From positions 1 through 45,916 of the forward strand of contig JACIYH010000018.1 of NCBI GenBank assembly GCA_014360055.1: 45,916 nucleotides of DNA, read 5' to 3'. Source of the stretch: Bacillota bacterium (GTDB taxonomy: Bacteria > Bacillota > Sulfobacillia > JACIYH01). A program made the translations under genes and the position numbers. The notes under the pieces were generated by a model that saw only the letters and a list, made by a program, of their open reading frames with translations, did no database searches and was not told the origin of the DNA. This document shows, one piece after another, positions 31,606-41,256 of the stretch (its first letter is position 1; every line of letters starts with the position of its first letter).

Positions 31606-31760
31606 CACGCCTCCGTGCACGCACCTGACCGCACCGACTTCTCTCCCTGGAAGCGCCCCACCGCACCGAGTTCTGACACCCCTCCCTGGAAGCGCCCCAC
31701 TGCACCGAGTTCTGACACCCCTCCCTGGAAGCGCCCGACCGCACCGACTCTTGCCCCCCC
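31575..31760. repeat. Tandem repeats starting inside the 3' end of the phosphatase gene
   Basis: Units beginning CTCCCTGG or CTCCGTGC start at 31575 (inside the gene), 31611, 31643, 31682 and 31721. The last three are exactly 39 bases apart and highly similar. Each carries a version of GACCGCACCGACTTCT, the final codons of the gene, so the array looks like repeated copying of the gene end. Confidence 0.8.
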
Positions 31761-31785: not shown

Positions 31786-33402
31786 TTGTCCCTGTATGCG
31801 CGAACCAGCAACAGCCGGGGGGCGGACTCCGCCCACCCGGCTGATCGCTTCCTGGGCCTGGGGCAGGTGGTCCTCCTGGTGATGGGAGGGACCATAGGCG
31901 CCGACGTGTACGTGGCGTCGGCCCTGGGGGCTCACCTGGGCTCGTCTGGCCTGTTCGTCTGGGCGGCGGGGGCCGTGATGGCCATGGCGGTGATCATGGC
32001 CTTCGCCGTCTGCGCCCTGGTGGTCCCGGATACGGGGGGACCGTACCTGTACGCCCGCCGGGCCTTCGGGCCCCTGGCCGGTTTCCTGGCGGGGTGGGCC
32101 GTGCTGGCGGCTCAGTGGGCGGCCCTGGTAGCCCTCCCGGTGGCTTTTTCGGGGTACCTGCAGACCATCGTGGGCCAACATGCCTGGCTACCCTGGTACG
32201 GGGCAGCCACCAGGGTCATGTTCCTGGCGGCCGTGGCACTGGCGGTCTGCCACGGACCGCGGCTCACCGCGCTCATCAACGACATCCTCACCGTGGCCCG
32301 GCTGGTGCCCCTGCTGCTGGTACTTGTAGCAGGCCTCACCTGGGCCGCCCTGCACCCGACCCAGGCCCTCGACCACCTCTCCCCCCTGCGGCCTCCCCCC
32401 CTGCGGGCGGGATGTGCCATGCTGGTCCCGGTGTTCTGGGCGTACGCCGGCTTCGAGGTGGGCAGCATCCCCGCCGGCCAGGTAAAAGAGCCACGCCGCA
32501 CCATCCCCCTGGGCCTCATTCTGGGCATGGCCGCCGCCTCGGCCATCTACCTGGTCGTCAACTTCACCACCGCACTGGTGGTGCCCCCATCGGAACTGGT
32601 GGTCAGCCCCGCCCCCCTCATGTCATGCGCCCGCGGGGTGGCCGCCGGTCTTCTCCCCTTCTGGCCACAGGCCCCCGGCGCAGCGGAACTGCTTCTCGGC
32701 ATCGGGGTGCTGGTGTCCATCCTGGGCACGGCCACCGCGGTCGCCTTCGCCGTCACCTATCTGGTGGCTGCCATGGCCTCGGCCCGACTGTTGCCCCCCG
32801 CTCTCGGGCGCGTCCATCCCCGCCTGGGCACCCCCGTAACCGCCCTGCTCGTCCTCACCGTCCCCGCCGCCCTGGCCAGCATGGCCAGCGGCCTGCTGTC
32901 CATCGTGAGCACGGCCGTAGTGTGCTCCGCCTTCGCTTACCTGGCCACCGCCCTGGCGGCCTGGCGATTGAATCCCACCCTCGCCGGTCGGCTCCTGGCT
33001 GCACTGGCCACAGCCGCGTGCCTGATCCTGCTTTCCCTGACCGAACTGGGGGTCCTCGCCGCTGGTGCGGGGTTGCTGGCCCTGGGCGGGCTCCTCTACG
33101 CCCTGCGTCGCCACCTCCCCGCTCCCGCTCCCGGGGTATGGGTGGAAACCTTCACCCCCCTGGTGGCCCTCGCCCCCGAGATGGGGGCAGCCCGCACCCC
33201 CGCCATGGGGGTACTCCGCGCCCCCGCCATAGGGACAGCCCACGCCCCCGCCACCCCGGGCTTCGTGACCCCAGGTCTCATAGCTCCCCCATCCTGGCAG
33301 ACCAGATTCTGGCAGACGAGGTTCGTCCCCGCCGCAGCATCCTTCTTCTCGCGGCTCCGTCCCCTCCCTCGCCCCCGTCGGCGCCTCCGTATCCCGGGGT
33401 AG
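31786..33402 (+). CDS. APC-family amino-acid permease
   Basis: A 538-residue permease of the amino acid-polyamine-organocation superfamily with about twelve helices. GQVVLLVMGGTIGADVYVAS is the unwound first helix; DTGGPYLYARRAFGPLAGFL, PVFWAYAGFEVGSIPAGQVK and ARLLPPALGRVHPRLGTPVT are family signatures. TTG 31786, six bases after GACGGGGGGG, is the start; the open frame upstream is the 39-bp repeat array. After the last helix (about residue 450) comes a low-complexity tail with repeated TPAMGVLRAPAIGTAHAPAT, encoded by degenerate DNA repeats that lead into the 32-bp array. Substrate unknown. Confidence 0.85.
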   Translation: MSLYARTSNSRGADSAHPADRFLGLGQVVLLVMGGTIGADVYVASALGAHLGSSGLFVWAAGAVMAMAVIMAFAVCALVVPDTGGPYLYARRAFGPLAGFLAGWAVLAAQWAALVALPVAFSGYLQTIVGQHAWLPWYGAATRVMFLAAVALAVCHGPRLTALINDILTVARLVPLLLVLVAGLTWAALHPTQALDHLSPLRPPPLRAGCAMLVPVFWAYAGFEVGSIPAGQVKEPRRTIPLGLILGMAAASAIYLVVNFTTALVVPPSELVVSPAPLMSCARGVAAGLLPFWPQAPGAAELLLGIGVLVSILGTATAVAFAVTYLVAAMASARLLPPALGRVHPRLGTPVTALLVLTVPAALASMASGLLSIVSTAVVCSAFAYLATALAAWRLNPTLAGRLLAALATAACLILLSLTELGVLAAGAGLLALGGLLYALRRHLPAPAPGVWVETFTPLVALAPEMGAARTPAMGVLRAPAIGTAHAPATPGFVTPGLIAPPSWQTRFWQTRFVPAAASFFSRLRPLPRPRRRLRIPG

Positions 33403-33422
33403 GCACCACAATCCAGGCGAAC

Positions 33423-33723
33423 ATCCGGGCGTGGGCGCCACGATCCGCGGGGAGATCCGGGCGCAGGCACCCCGGTCCGGGGGGCAATCGGGGCGTGGGC
33501 GCCACGATCCGTGGGGAGATCCGGGCGCAGGCGCCCCGGTCCGGGGGGCAATCGGGGCGTGGGCGCCACGATCGGGGGAAAGACCGGGGCGTGGGCGCCA
33601 CGATCTGGGGGGCAATCGGGGCGTGGGCGCCACGATCCGCGGGGCAATTGTGGCGTGGGCGCCACGATCGGGGGAGAGACCAGGGCGTGGGCGCGCCCCA
33701 ATCCGGCGGACATCCCCGCGTGG
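33423..33723. repeat. Nine exactly phased 32-bp tandem repeats
   Basis: Nine units start at 33423, 33455, 33487, 33519, 33551, 33583, 33615, 33647 and 33679, each exactly 32 bases, with a partial tenth from 33711. Six carry the inverted repeat CGTGG-GCG-CCACG; two (33455 and 33519) are a second type with GCAGGC in its place. There are no spacers, so this is not a CRISPR array. All frames are open here only because of the base composition. Confidence 0.9.
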
Positions 33724-33783
33724 TGAGGCGGGTGCGGGCGAGGCGTGCAGTGGCAGGGGATTCCTTCCGCAGGTGTAGGGCGA

Positions 33784-33853
33784 GGCGGAGGGCGGATGGT
33801 GGGGAGGTTGCGGATGGTGAGGCGGATGGTGGGGAGGGCGGATGGTGGGGAGG
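33784..33853. repeat. Purine-rich GGCGGATGGTGGGGAGG repeats
   Basis: GCGGATGGTG followed by GGGAGG or AGGCGG recurs four times in 70 bases directly before the promoter at 33854. Confidence 0.7.
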
Positions 33854-33882
33854 TTGACAAGGTCGGGCTGGCACCTTAGCAT
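33854..33882 (+). promoter_or_regulatory. Predicted promoter of the lipoprotein-like gene
   Basis: TTGACA (33854-33859) and TAGCAT (33877-33882) are 17 bases apart, 41 bases before the ATG at 33924. Confidence 0.6.
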
Positions 33883-33923
33883 GGCATGGGAGTCCATTCC
33901 GGGAGCGGGCGGGGAGGTTCGCC

Positions 33924-34607
33924 ATGCGAGTTGGGGTCCTGCGTTGGTCTGTGCTGGTGCTGGCAGTAGCGACGGTGGTTTCCCTTACCGTGGGGCCGGG
34001 GTGCTTCCGCCGCCAGACACGGGAGCCCGTCCCGCCCCCGCAGCCCGGTCCCGCCCCGGAAACCACGCCGGCCGAGGAGAAACGCGCGTGGCCGGTGCTT
34101 CAACCCGGGCTGAAACTCATCTACCGGGACGAGAAGACGGGTCAGGAAACGTGGAGCGAGCAGTGCGCTGCCAGCACCCTGGACGACAAGGAGGTCATCC
34201 CCGTGGTCACGGAGGACGGCGAATACGTGTCCTACGTGGCCGAGCAGGACGGCTGGCTGGTGGAGGTGGGAGCGCGCGACCCCAACGGCCGGAGCGCCTG
34301 GCCGGAGCCCCTCCGCTGCTACCCCCTTGAGCCCGCCGTGGGGATGAAGTGGGAAAGCGAGGAAGAGGGTGGCATCCTCCGTCACGAGATCGAGGCTATC
34401 GAGGAGATCTCGGTCCCGGCGGGTGAGTTCCGGACTGCCCGCGTGGTGATCAAGGTGGTAGATCCGGCCTCGGGGAAAGAAGAGGCCGGGTCAGAACAGC
34501 GCTTCTGGTACGACGTCGAGACGGGCATCGTGGTCAAGAACGGGGACCTGGTTCTCATCAAACAGGAGCAGGTGGAACCGCGCCCGGATCCGGGCCTGCC
34601 GCACTGA
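33924..34607 (+). CDS. Exported, possibly lipid-anchored protein of unknown function
   Basis: A 227-residue protein with a signal peptide (MRVGVLRWSVLVLAVATVVS) ending near GPGC; the lipobox is imperfect. A Pro-rich spacer follows, then a beta-rich domain (LKLIYRDEKTGQETWS, PVVTEDGEYVSYVAEQDGWL, EEISVPAGEFRTARVVIKVV, RFWYDVETGIVVKNGDLVLI) of the kind seen in exported beta-sheet lipoproteins. No specific function is recognised. The ATG has GGGGAGG upstream and a promoter lies close by. The stop region is repeated downstream. Confidence 0.7.
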   Translation: MRVGVLRWSVLVLAVATVVSLTVGPGCFRRQTREPVPPPQPGPAPETTPAEEKRAWPVLQPGLKLIYRDEKTGQETWSEQCAASTLDDKEVIPVVTEDGEYVSYVAEQDGWLVEVGARDPNGRSAWPEPLRCYPLEPAVGMKWESEEEGGILRHEIEAIEEISVPAGEFRTARVVIKVVDPASGKEEAGSEQRFWYDVETGIVVKNGDLVLIKQEQVEPRPDPGLPH

Positions 34608-34690: not shown

Positions 34691-34900
34691 ACGGGGTCCG
34701 TGGGCACGGCCGGGCAGAATCGGGGGGACGGGGGGCCAACCAGGAAGGATTGGCGCGCGGCGGGGCGAAACTTCTGGAGTAATTCGATGGGCGAAGGATC
34801 GCCCGCGGCGCCAGGGAGGTGCCCCGGCCCTGTCCAGCGCATCCCCAAAATCGGGCAGCACATCCGCGCCGCCGGGGTCCGTCCGGGGGGAGGGCACGCC

Positions 34901-35050
34901 GGCGGAGCAAGCGCGGCCGGCGGTCGTGTCGGCGGAGCAAGCGCGGCCGGCGGTCGTGTCGGCGGAGCAAGCGCCACCTGGGGTCACGCCGGAGGAGCAA
35001 GTGCGGGCTCCCGTCGCGCAGGCGGAGCAAGTGCGGCCCCCGGTCGTGCA
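34901..35050. repeat. Five 30-bp repeats running into the MFS gene 5' end
   Basis: GGCGGAGCAA or GGAGGAGCAA starts at 34901, 34931, 34961, 34991 and 35021, exactly 30 bases apart. In the frame of the downstream gene each unit encodes ten residues such as SAEQARPAVV and contains possible GTG start codons. Confidence 0.85.
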
Positions 35051-36536
35051 GGCCCAGGCAGCGGCGGCGGGGACGCCCGGGCGGTGGCGGGCGCTGGTTG
35101 CCCTGCTGGCGGGGTCCATCATGGGTCCCATCGACGCCAGCATCGTGAACATCAACCTCCCCGTCATCGCCGCCGACCTGGGGGCGACACCGGACCGGGT
35201 GGGCTGGGTGTCCATGGCTTACCTCCTGGTGCTGGGTACCCTGCTGTTGCCCTTCGGCCGCCTGGGCGACATCCTCGGGCTGAAACGCGTCTACCTGGCC
35301 GGGCTCCTCACTTTCGTCGCTACCTCGGCCACCTGTACCCTGGCGTGGACCCTGGGAACCCTGATCTCCTTCCGGGCCCTCCAGGCGCTGGGGGCCGGCA
35401 TGACCATGGCCATGGCCCCGGCCATCATCACCGCCCTTTTCCCTCCGCAGGAGCGCGGGCGAGCCCTGGGTCTCAATGGCATGACCGTAGCCCTGGGCCT
35501 CAGCCTGGGGCCCACCCTGGGAGGATGGCTGGCAGACGCCTTCGGCTGGCGGTCCATCTTCCTGGTCAACGTACCGGTGGGCCTGGTCGCCTACTTCCTC
35601 TGCCGACGGATGCTACCCCCGCTCCATCCGCGTGAAGCCAGCCGCTCCTTCGATGCCGCCGGGGCCCTGCTGGCGTGCGTCAGCCTCTCGTGCCTGCTGG
35701 TATCCGCCACCCGGGGTCCCGCGGGCGGCCAGCCTCTCCCGTTCCTGGCCCTGGGCGCGGTCGGCGTCGCCCTGGCCGCTCTCTTCATCCGGGTGGAAAA
35801 GAGCGCAGACCACCCCATGCTCGACCTTTCCCTATTTGGGAACCGCATCTTCTCGGCGGGCGTCGGGGTGGCCTGGCTGAACTTCATCACCCAGTACGTG
35901 ATCGTGTTCGTGACCCCTTTCTACCTGCAGCAGGTGGCGGGCCTGCGCCCGGGACACGCCGGCACCATCATGACCGCCTTCCCCCTGACGATACTGGTGG
36001 TGGCTCCCCTGGCCGGAGCCCTCTCCGACCGGGTGGGACACCGCTGGCCCGCTCTGGTGGGCCTCACCCTGTGCGGGGTGGGGGCCGCTGCCATGCTCGG
36101 CCTGGAACCCTACGGCGGCGGTGCCGTGGCATGGCGACTTTCCCTTTTCGGACTGGGGACGGGACTCTTTCAATCCCCCAACAACAGCGCCATCATGGGC
36201 GCCGTTCCCCGTTCCCGCCTGGGCGTGGCAGGCGGCACCCTGGCGACCGCTCGCAACGTGGGGATGACCTTCGGCATCGCCCTGGCCAGCACTGTCCTGG
36301 CGGTGCGACACCCCGTCCACGCGGCGGCGGGCGTCCCCCAGCCCTTCTTTGCAGCCGTGCGGGATGCCTGGCTCGCCGCCGCCGGGGTGGCCCTGATCGC
36401 CATCCTCCTGCAGTTCTGCCTGGTCTCCGTCCCCCTCGCCGGCCTGTGCCCGCACCGCGGGACAGGCATCTCGGGGACCTCTGGGGGAGGGGTGCACACC
36501 CGGGGCACTCTGAAGAAGGAGAGACACGAGCGTTGA
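35001..36536 (+). CDS. DHA2-type MFS drug transporter
   Basis: A fourteen-helix drug:H+ antiporter of the EmrB/QacA type. Motif C-like LGLNGMTVALGLSLGPTLGG, motif A-like FGRLGDILGLKRVYLAG, the opening LLAGSIMGPIDASIVNINLP and DRVGHRWPALVG are characteristic. About 511 residues from GTG 35001, which follows GGAGGAGCAA; the open frame also allows GTG 34926 and others inside the 30-bp repeats. It overlaps the next MFS gene by three bases (TTGA), so the two are coupled. Confidence 0.85.
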   Translation: MRAPVAQAEQVRPPVVQAQAAAAGTPGRWRALVALLAGSIMGPIDASIVNINLPVIAADLGATPDRVGWVSMAYLLVLGTLLLPFGRLGDILGLKRVYLAGLLTFVATSATCTLAWTLGTLISFRALQALGAGMTMAMAPAIITALFPPQERGRALGLNGMTVALGLSLGPTLGGWLADAFGWRSIFLVNVPVGLVAYFLCRRMLPPLHPREASRSFDAAGALLACVSLSCLLVSATRGPAGGQPLPFLALGAVGVALAALFIRVEKSADHPMLDLSLFGNRIFSAGVGVAWLNFITQYVIVFVTPFYLQQVAGLRPGHAGTIMTAFPLTILVVAPLAGALSDRVGHRWPALVGLTLCGVGAAAMLGLEPYGGGAVAWRLSLFGLGTGLFQSPNNSAIMGAVPRSRLGVAGGTLATARNVGMTFGIALASTVLAVRHPVHAAAGVPQPFFAAVRDAWLAAAGVALIAILLQFCLVSVPLAGLCPHRGTGISGTSGGGVHTRGTLKKERHER

Positions 36537-41079: not shown

Positions 41080-41256
41080 TTTCAGTCCCGTCTACGTCCG
41101 GGTTGGCGTTGGTGGGGGCCGAGGAGTACCCCGAGAAGCCGCGCACGAAGGCTTTCAGTCCCGTCTACGTCCGGGTTGGCGTTGGTGGTAAGGTTCGTCG
41201 TCGGCACCGTAACGCGCATCGCTCCTTTCAGTCCCGTCTACGTCCGGGTTGGCGTT
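41080..41256 (-). CRISPR. CRISPR remnant: two full repeats, one truncated repeat, two spacers
   Basis: TTTCAGTCCCGTCTACGTCC followed by GGGTTGGCGTTGGTGG is the 36-base repeat at 41080-41115 and 41153-41188; a third copy at 41226 keeps 31 bases and then joins the transposase remnant. The two spacers (41116-41152 and 41189-41225) are unrelated to each other and both 37 bases. On the minus strand the repeat ends GACTGAAA, like type III/I 5' handles, so the array is probably read on the minus strand. No leader, cas1, cas2 or effector genes are in the window. Confidence 0.9.

Follow-up and report, generated by a model that had tools for sequence, protein, structure and literature searches.

An amino acid permease gene and a lipoprotein-like gene of a Bacillota bacterium are separated by a run of repeats that recur every 32 bases, and this locus raises the questions (i) whether the array serves the gene whose promoter lies downstream of it, (ii) whether related arrays occur elsewhere, and (iii) whether the regular spacing is inherited from copying or is kept because something recognises it. 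A reading made from the sequence alone had described nine units, six of them with an inverted repeat, within the window (the whole stretch of 45,916 nucleotides that was analysed), and had suggested either recent copying or selected helical phasing. The features of the locus are as follows.

31786-33402, plus strand: amino acid permease gene (PF13520), upstream
33391-33412, plus strand: first palindrome unit, degenerate, in register, score 18.6, overlapping the permease stop codon
33423-33444, plus strand: palindrome unit 1, A type
33455-33476, plus strand: palindrome unit 2, B type, CGCAGGCACCCCGG
33487-33508, plus strand: palindrome unit 3, A type
33519-33540, plus strand: palindrome unit 4, B type, identical with its linker to unit 2 at 31/32 bases
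33551-33572, plus strand: palindrome unit 5, A type
33583-33604, plus strand: palindrome unit 6, A type
33615-33636, plus strand: palindrome unit 7, A type
33647-33668, plus strand: palindrome unit 8, A type, ATTGTGGCG/CGCCACGAT, arms pairing at 9/9 positions, counting one G-T
33679-33700, plus strand: last unit, degenerate, in register, score only 2.4
33854-33882, plus strand: sigma-70-like promoter, kept in the sister species G002, where the array is absent
33924-34607, plus strand: lipoprotein-like gene, downstream, no Pfam family, with an 85% identical orthologue in G002

The array occupies positions 33391-33700, between the two genes. An array walk placed ten registers from 33391 to 33679, with nine of nine spacings exactly 32 bases and with degenerate first and last units. 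The 32-base repeats and their invariant spacing were thus confirmed, and TRF gave the same period for 33402-33694 (9.2 copies, 76% matches, 1% indels); only the start had been misplaced, as the array begins one unit earlier, at 33391. The inverted repeat was likewise recovered in six units: CGTGGGCGCCACG is present in 6 copies in the window, all inside the array, where 0.02 would be expected from shuffles. The form first proposed for it, CGTGG-GCG-CCACG, is indeed an inverted repeat, with a centre off by half a base and arms that are nine rather than five bases long. The true unit is a 22-base imperfect palindrome (9-base arms, 4-base centre) followed by a 10-base linker, a typical palindrome of the window being ATCGGGGCG-TGGG-CGCCACGAT with a G-rich linker after it. 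Units 33423 and 33487 agree at 30/32 bases, and adjacent A and B units have only 22-24 bases in common. Since units 33455 and 33519 differ in just one of 32 bases, the array also holds a 64-base two-unit repeat, which TRF reports for 33423-33644 (period 64, 3.5 copies, 88% matches, 0% indels).

Other tandem repeats of the window have different periods. A 30-base repeat at 34898-35053 (5.2 copies, 81% matches, no indels) lies just before or overlaps the start of an MFS transporter gene and, its period being a multiple of three, may encode a repetitive N-terminus. A 39-base repeat immediately 5' of the permease (31643-31747, 2.7 copies, 95%) reads through in one frame as a repetitive N-terminal extension, and a 24-base repeat in the 3' end of the same gene (33166-33253, 3.7 copies) yields a degenerate repetitive C-terminal tail. 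The 73-base repeat at 41080-41256 (2.4 copies) is intergenic and unlike the 32-base family.

The genome from which the window comes is a 2.72-Mb draft in 141 contigs. A blastn search with the window array identified five further places in it (66-75% identity), which have the same 22 + 10 layout with other arm sequences. We aligned 21 two-unit stretches, in which the arms pair in 83.6% of cells at the true register vs 33-52% when slid by one to three columns, and built on them a 54-nt covariance model of two units (R1). In the own genome R1 gave 86 matches (E<=10), which correspond to about ten arrays; some places were matched on both strands and so count twice. Looking for the unit elsewhere in the genome and in relatives, as the sequence-only reading had proposed, thus uncovered a dispersed family in three sister species: our catalogue contains 131 units, about 50 of them in the own genome, in 22 intergenic arrays (9 in the own genome, 10 in G002 and 3 in G001), which fall into 16 families at unrelated places after related arrays are merged. 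The family consensus is approximately ATYGSGGYG-YRGG-CRCCSCGRT, repeated every 31-32 bases. Within an array, one orientation gives the best score for most units, and near-symmetry leaves some ambiguous. Several family arrays lie near contig ends or contain N runs (L138:7426-7525, L144:6-27, L134:157-400 and L136:10998-11304), so that copy numbers in these draft assemblies are probably underestimated.

Among the 113 spacings in the catalogue, 79 are 32 and 31 are 31 bases, with one each of 29, 33 and 35; the 110 of 31 or 32 average 31.7 bases, or 10.6 per turn over three turns. The array walk accepted any spacing of 28-36, departures from 32 being mildly penalised, and the matrix and model behind the unit positions were themselves built from 31/32-spaced units, which biases these counts. 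We checked for this bias with a spacing-blind pattern of one palindrome with at most three mismatches, which was run over the three genomes and counted for the own genome, where the list was complete. The scan found 65 places, of which 22 are isolated; as the read-backwards control gave 33 matches, the isolated places are at chance level. The 34 neighbour distances below 1 kb were 31 (5), 32 (24), 63 (3), 64 (1) and 20 (1), so that 33 of the 34 fit the period, and 31 of the 32 places with at most two mismatches lie inside arrays. The original observation was therefore right but understated, as phasing is a property of the whole genus. What did not hold is that the helical phasing is exact: spacing is fixed at 31-32 bases genus-wide, and over its nine steps of 32 the window array slips about 4.5 bases out of register with a helix of 10.5 bp per turn; other arrays mix 31 and 32.

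By simple codon-usage gene calls, the spacers that hold arrays are flanked by genes in tandem, convergent or divergent order. We scanned 30 proteins encoded beside or near arrays and found no common function (permease, cytochrome c552, UbiA, MarR regulator, metallo-beta-lactamase fold, S-layer proteins, DeoC/cytidine deaminase, RibD and M24 peptidase were among the products), and the arrays showed no clustering near particular genes among them. The replication-related role that had been considered for the array found no support, since no replication-origin context was present among the flanking proteins scanned.

We also determined how far the family extends. In the search of relatives, R1 matched 3 of 41 genomes, namely the own genome and two other species of its genus. 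Across the class it matched 4 of 154: the three members of the genus and G085, with one isolated match (E 6.9e-5) around which no obvious array was visible by eye. No array was detected in the 151 other class members and, in a phylum sample of 398 genomes, the own genome was the sole match, with none in the 397 others (both under a stricter filter and with few candidates scored per genome). Relatives of the permease (80 kept, 28-40% identity) include Limnochordaceae, other Bacillota and many archaea, and five genomes reached via permease loci had no R1 match. An origin from plasmids, phages or viruses was rejected, as the array had no blastn match among plasmids and phages and the palindrome pattern no exact match in IMG/VR contigs. 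The array family thus looks like a genus-specific, dispersed intergenic repeat.

Comparison with one or both sister species was possible at six sites, and at four of these the array is missing from at least one sister.

Window array: absent in G002
C102 array: absent in G001 and G002
C131 array: absent in G002
G002 C12:53.2 kb array: about 260 bases in G002, where the own genome has just a few, between flanks of 93-95% identity
C64/C12 array: shared, with 3 vs 5 units
C76/C17/C2 array: common to three species, with 5, 6 and at least 10 units, the third of these copies containing an N run

At the window site, where the comparison covers G002 alone (the G001 contig ends inside the permease gene, and no lipoprotein-like orthologue was found in G001), the permease (76%) and lipoprotein (85%) genes of G002 are adjacent as in the window, and their spacer holds no unit above threshold. 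Nor does it hold a remnant unit: its best local match was no better than shuffles, which reached it in 34 of 200 cases with the window units and in 116 of 200 with all good units, and a candidate noted by eye after the G002 permease stop was dropped. Unit copy number, whose comparison had been suggested from the start, differs at both shared sites. Arrays have thus been gained or lost, and their copy number has changed, between sister species; the direction of each change is something that we infer. Of the two outcomes that the sequence-only reading had regarded as signs of neutral slippage, a relative without repeats at this place exists (G002), and variable unit length is not seen across the family.

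The G002 spacer instead contains two other tandem arrays, one of 11 bases x 4.2 (L148:11594-11639) and one of 34 bases x 3.5 with the inverted repeat GGCCGGA...TCCGGCC (L148:11763-11881), as if the spacer itself favoured tandem duplication. In the three-species array (L138:7243-7679, L140:7044-7222, L142:8343-8490), units of 31 and of 32 bases follow each other in turn with two different linkers, giving a 63-base higher-order unit, and many of its interspecies differences are CG-step transitions within the palindrome arms. In two species (L141:8900-9110, L135:12690-13000), a further family array lies about 20 bases before a TTGACA element that precedes a MarR-family regulator gene, with two extra units in one of them.

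Comparing palindromes with linkers, and leaving out units without a full 10-base linker, we obtained identities within arrays of 0.76 for palindromes vs 0.51 for linkers (379 pairs). Between the 16 families they were 0.63 vs 0.42 (7441 pairs), with 0.37 for random linkers. The early remark that spacing is kept though the sequence between units drifts is thus true of the family at large, whose linkers are close to random at a spacing of 31-32. The best conserved columns are symmetric (A1, T2, G6, G7, G9 and C16, C17, T22), and no linker column carries more than 0.46 bit. Covariation between the arms is modest, with 663 Watson-Crick cells among 113 distinct units vs 637 (s.d. 8.6) in shuffles and, with one unit per family, a mean z of 1.3 that stems mostly from pairs 5-18 and 8-15; pair 1 is A-T in 115 of the 131 units, and at pair 2 T-G stands in 75 units and T-A in 20. 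We also simulated neutral linkers on a simple star tree at the observed identity, with 300 runs per indel:substitution ratio. At least 97% of lengths fell into two adjacent values in 29 runs at a ratio of 0.02 and in none at 0.05 or 0.1, and neutral evolution thus reproduces the constant linker length only at very low indel rates. Because palindromes are more conserved than linkers and linker length is fixed, both the palindrome and the three-turn spacing look constrained, a conclusion that is supported but not proven, and the constraint probably comes from a putative recognising factor.

We favour, with moderate confidence, the interpretation that the window array belongs to a genus-specific, REP/BIME-like dispersed tandem-palindrome element with such a putative factor. 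Its arrays would arise at, or vanish from, spacers between unrelated genes and would expand and contract through tandem duplication in steps of 32 or 64 bases (one or two units). The dyad and the three-turn spacing would be kept because dyads so spaced are what the factor, perhaps a mobilising enzyme or else a DNA-binding protein, would recognise. Counting against this interpretation are the lack of any PF01797 match in the own genome, where no mobilising enzyme was found, and the modest covariation of the arms.

The main alternative to this REP-like element is neutral copying, which we judge to be unlikely, if a serious contender: GC-rich palindromic DNA would slip or duplicate in 32- or 64-base steps as minisatellites do, and the period would be inherited from copying. 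The main argument for it is that tandem duplication is common in the lineage, the genus and class being rich in unrelated tandem arrays. The window has 20 distinct TRF arrays of period >=9, or 4.4 per 10 kb, vs 1.8 in six other own contigs, 0.9 in four sister stretches, 1.45 in ten class members and 0.54 in 80 permease loci of other organisms. Neutral copying also fits the clear 64-base duplications of the window array and the copy-number changes between species, as well as the three-species array, in which the palindromes, judged by eye, change at least as fast as the linkers, against palindrome constraint. However, it accounts poorly for the recurrence of one palindrome and one period in 16 array families at unrelated places, for the symmetry of the conserved columns, and for linker lengths that stay constant at an identity of 0.42, as the simulations show.

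A more specific proposal is that a lineage-specific DNA-binding protein sits on phased dyads every three turns, on one face of the DNA, in about ten dispersed intergenic arrays per genome, whose spread and turnover would resemble those of mobile elements, with dyad and spacing alone being kept. We put this forward tentatively, as an unlikely conjecture.

Rather less probable still are chromosomal protein-binding arrays under direct selection, in which a dimer on every dyad, along one helix face, would polymerise or bridge as in partition or nucleoid-organising arrays. The mean spacing of three turns, the symmetric conserved bases with free linkers, and the near-confinement of good matches to arrays in the own genome are as such binding would predict. 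Against it, the array is missing in a sister at most of the sites compared, no candidate protein was found, and the 32-only window array drifts relative to a 10.5-base helix.

We consider it improbable that the arrays act as RNA, with hairpins in read-through transcripts serving as terminators or as RNase or stability elements. The minus strand of the array does fold better than shuffles (z -3.4), and in the chosen orientation T-G pairs outnumber A-C mismatches (141 vs 64 of 1179 cells). However, the plus strand, that of both neighbour genes, does not fold better than shuffles (z -0.24), and T-G at the two main pairs is near the expectation from column composition (75 vs 71 and 30 vs 26). There are no U-tract terminators (no rho-independent terminator, i.e. 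a G+C-rich hairpin with a T run, in 33300-34000), arrays also lie between divergent genes, and a known RNA family was rejected, as the window array had no Rfam match. Finally, that the array is an operator or upstream activator of the lipoprotein-like gene is scarcely credible and was rejected: the expected promoter some 130 bases downstream is present and good (TTGACA-17-TAGCAT, 10/12 consensus positions, starting at 33854, 131 bases after 33723), but G002 keeps both promoter (TTGACA...TAGCAT) and gene without any array, and other family arrays are flanked by convergent or divergent genes whose functions are unrelated.

Descriptions of small palindromic repeats usually concern singles or pairs linked to a REP transposase. 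Here we have an untagged family, transposase-less in the own genome, that lies nearly entirely in head-to-tail arrays with a near-invariant three-turn period and near-random linkers. If the spacing is selected, the family offers a clean natural test of what fixes repeat spacing in bacteria and points to a recognising protein; if it is not, the family is a clearly delimited example of tandem duplication driven by palindromes between genes.

A CRISPR array was rejected, since the linkers are 9-10 bases long and partly common within arrays, and no cas was present among the 30 proteins scanned. In sopC of plasmid F, tandem units span a whole number of helical turns and each contains an inverted repeat. 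The present arrays resemble such partition or iteron arrays in both respects, but unlike sopC they are dispersed over the chromosome at positions that are not conserved, with no replication or partition gene in the flanks examined. They resemble minisatellites and VNTR loci such as MIRU in that copy number differs between relatives at one site, whereas here palindrome and period are common to unrelated sites and the linkers are free.

The closest known kind is that of REP/BIME-type palindromic repeats. REPs and BIMEs are short extragenic palindromes of 20-40 bp, and the palindromes described here, of 22 bases, lie in gaps between called genes. RAYT-driven REPs were rejected, as the REP transposase family PF01797 (RAYT/Y1) had no match in the own genome (the control matched in 5 of 14 named genomes). 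The tags GTAG, CGTC, TGTC and CCTC together, of which TGTC and CCTC are variants of CGTC, were present in 0 of the 131 units on one strand and 1 of 131 on the other. The literature searched, including the available portions of PMC12306157, contained no description that we recognised as this palindrome family. According to PMC2817692 and PMC3733652, the family shares with the GTAG REPs/BIMEs that have RAYT extragenic palindromes, regularly spaced clusters and species-specific dynamics, and differs from them in being without the GTAG tag, in units that mostly appear to keep one orientation, and in numbering about 50 rather than more than 100 units. The CGTC REPs, as described in the accessible part of PMC3733652, have stems of 8-9 and loops of 4-5, with A-T pairs at the stem base and without a dedicated transposase; including the neisserial dRS3, they form large clusters in Neisseria and Wolbachia and are mostly head-head dimers. 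Our family is like them in its short intergenic palindromes with 9-base arms and a 4-base centre, and unlike them in its strict 31-32-base head-to-tail arrays, a fixed-period layout that differs from the REP organisation set out in that part of the paper. The family thus looks like, and would work like, a REP/BIME-type repeat, without being classed as one.
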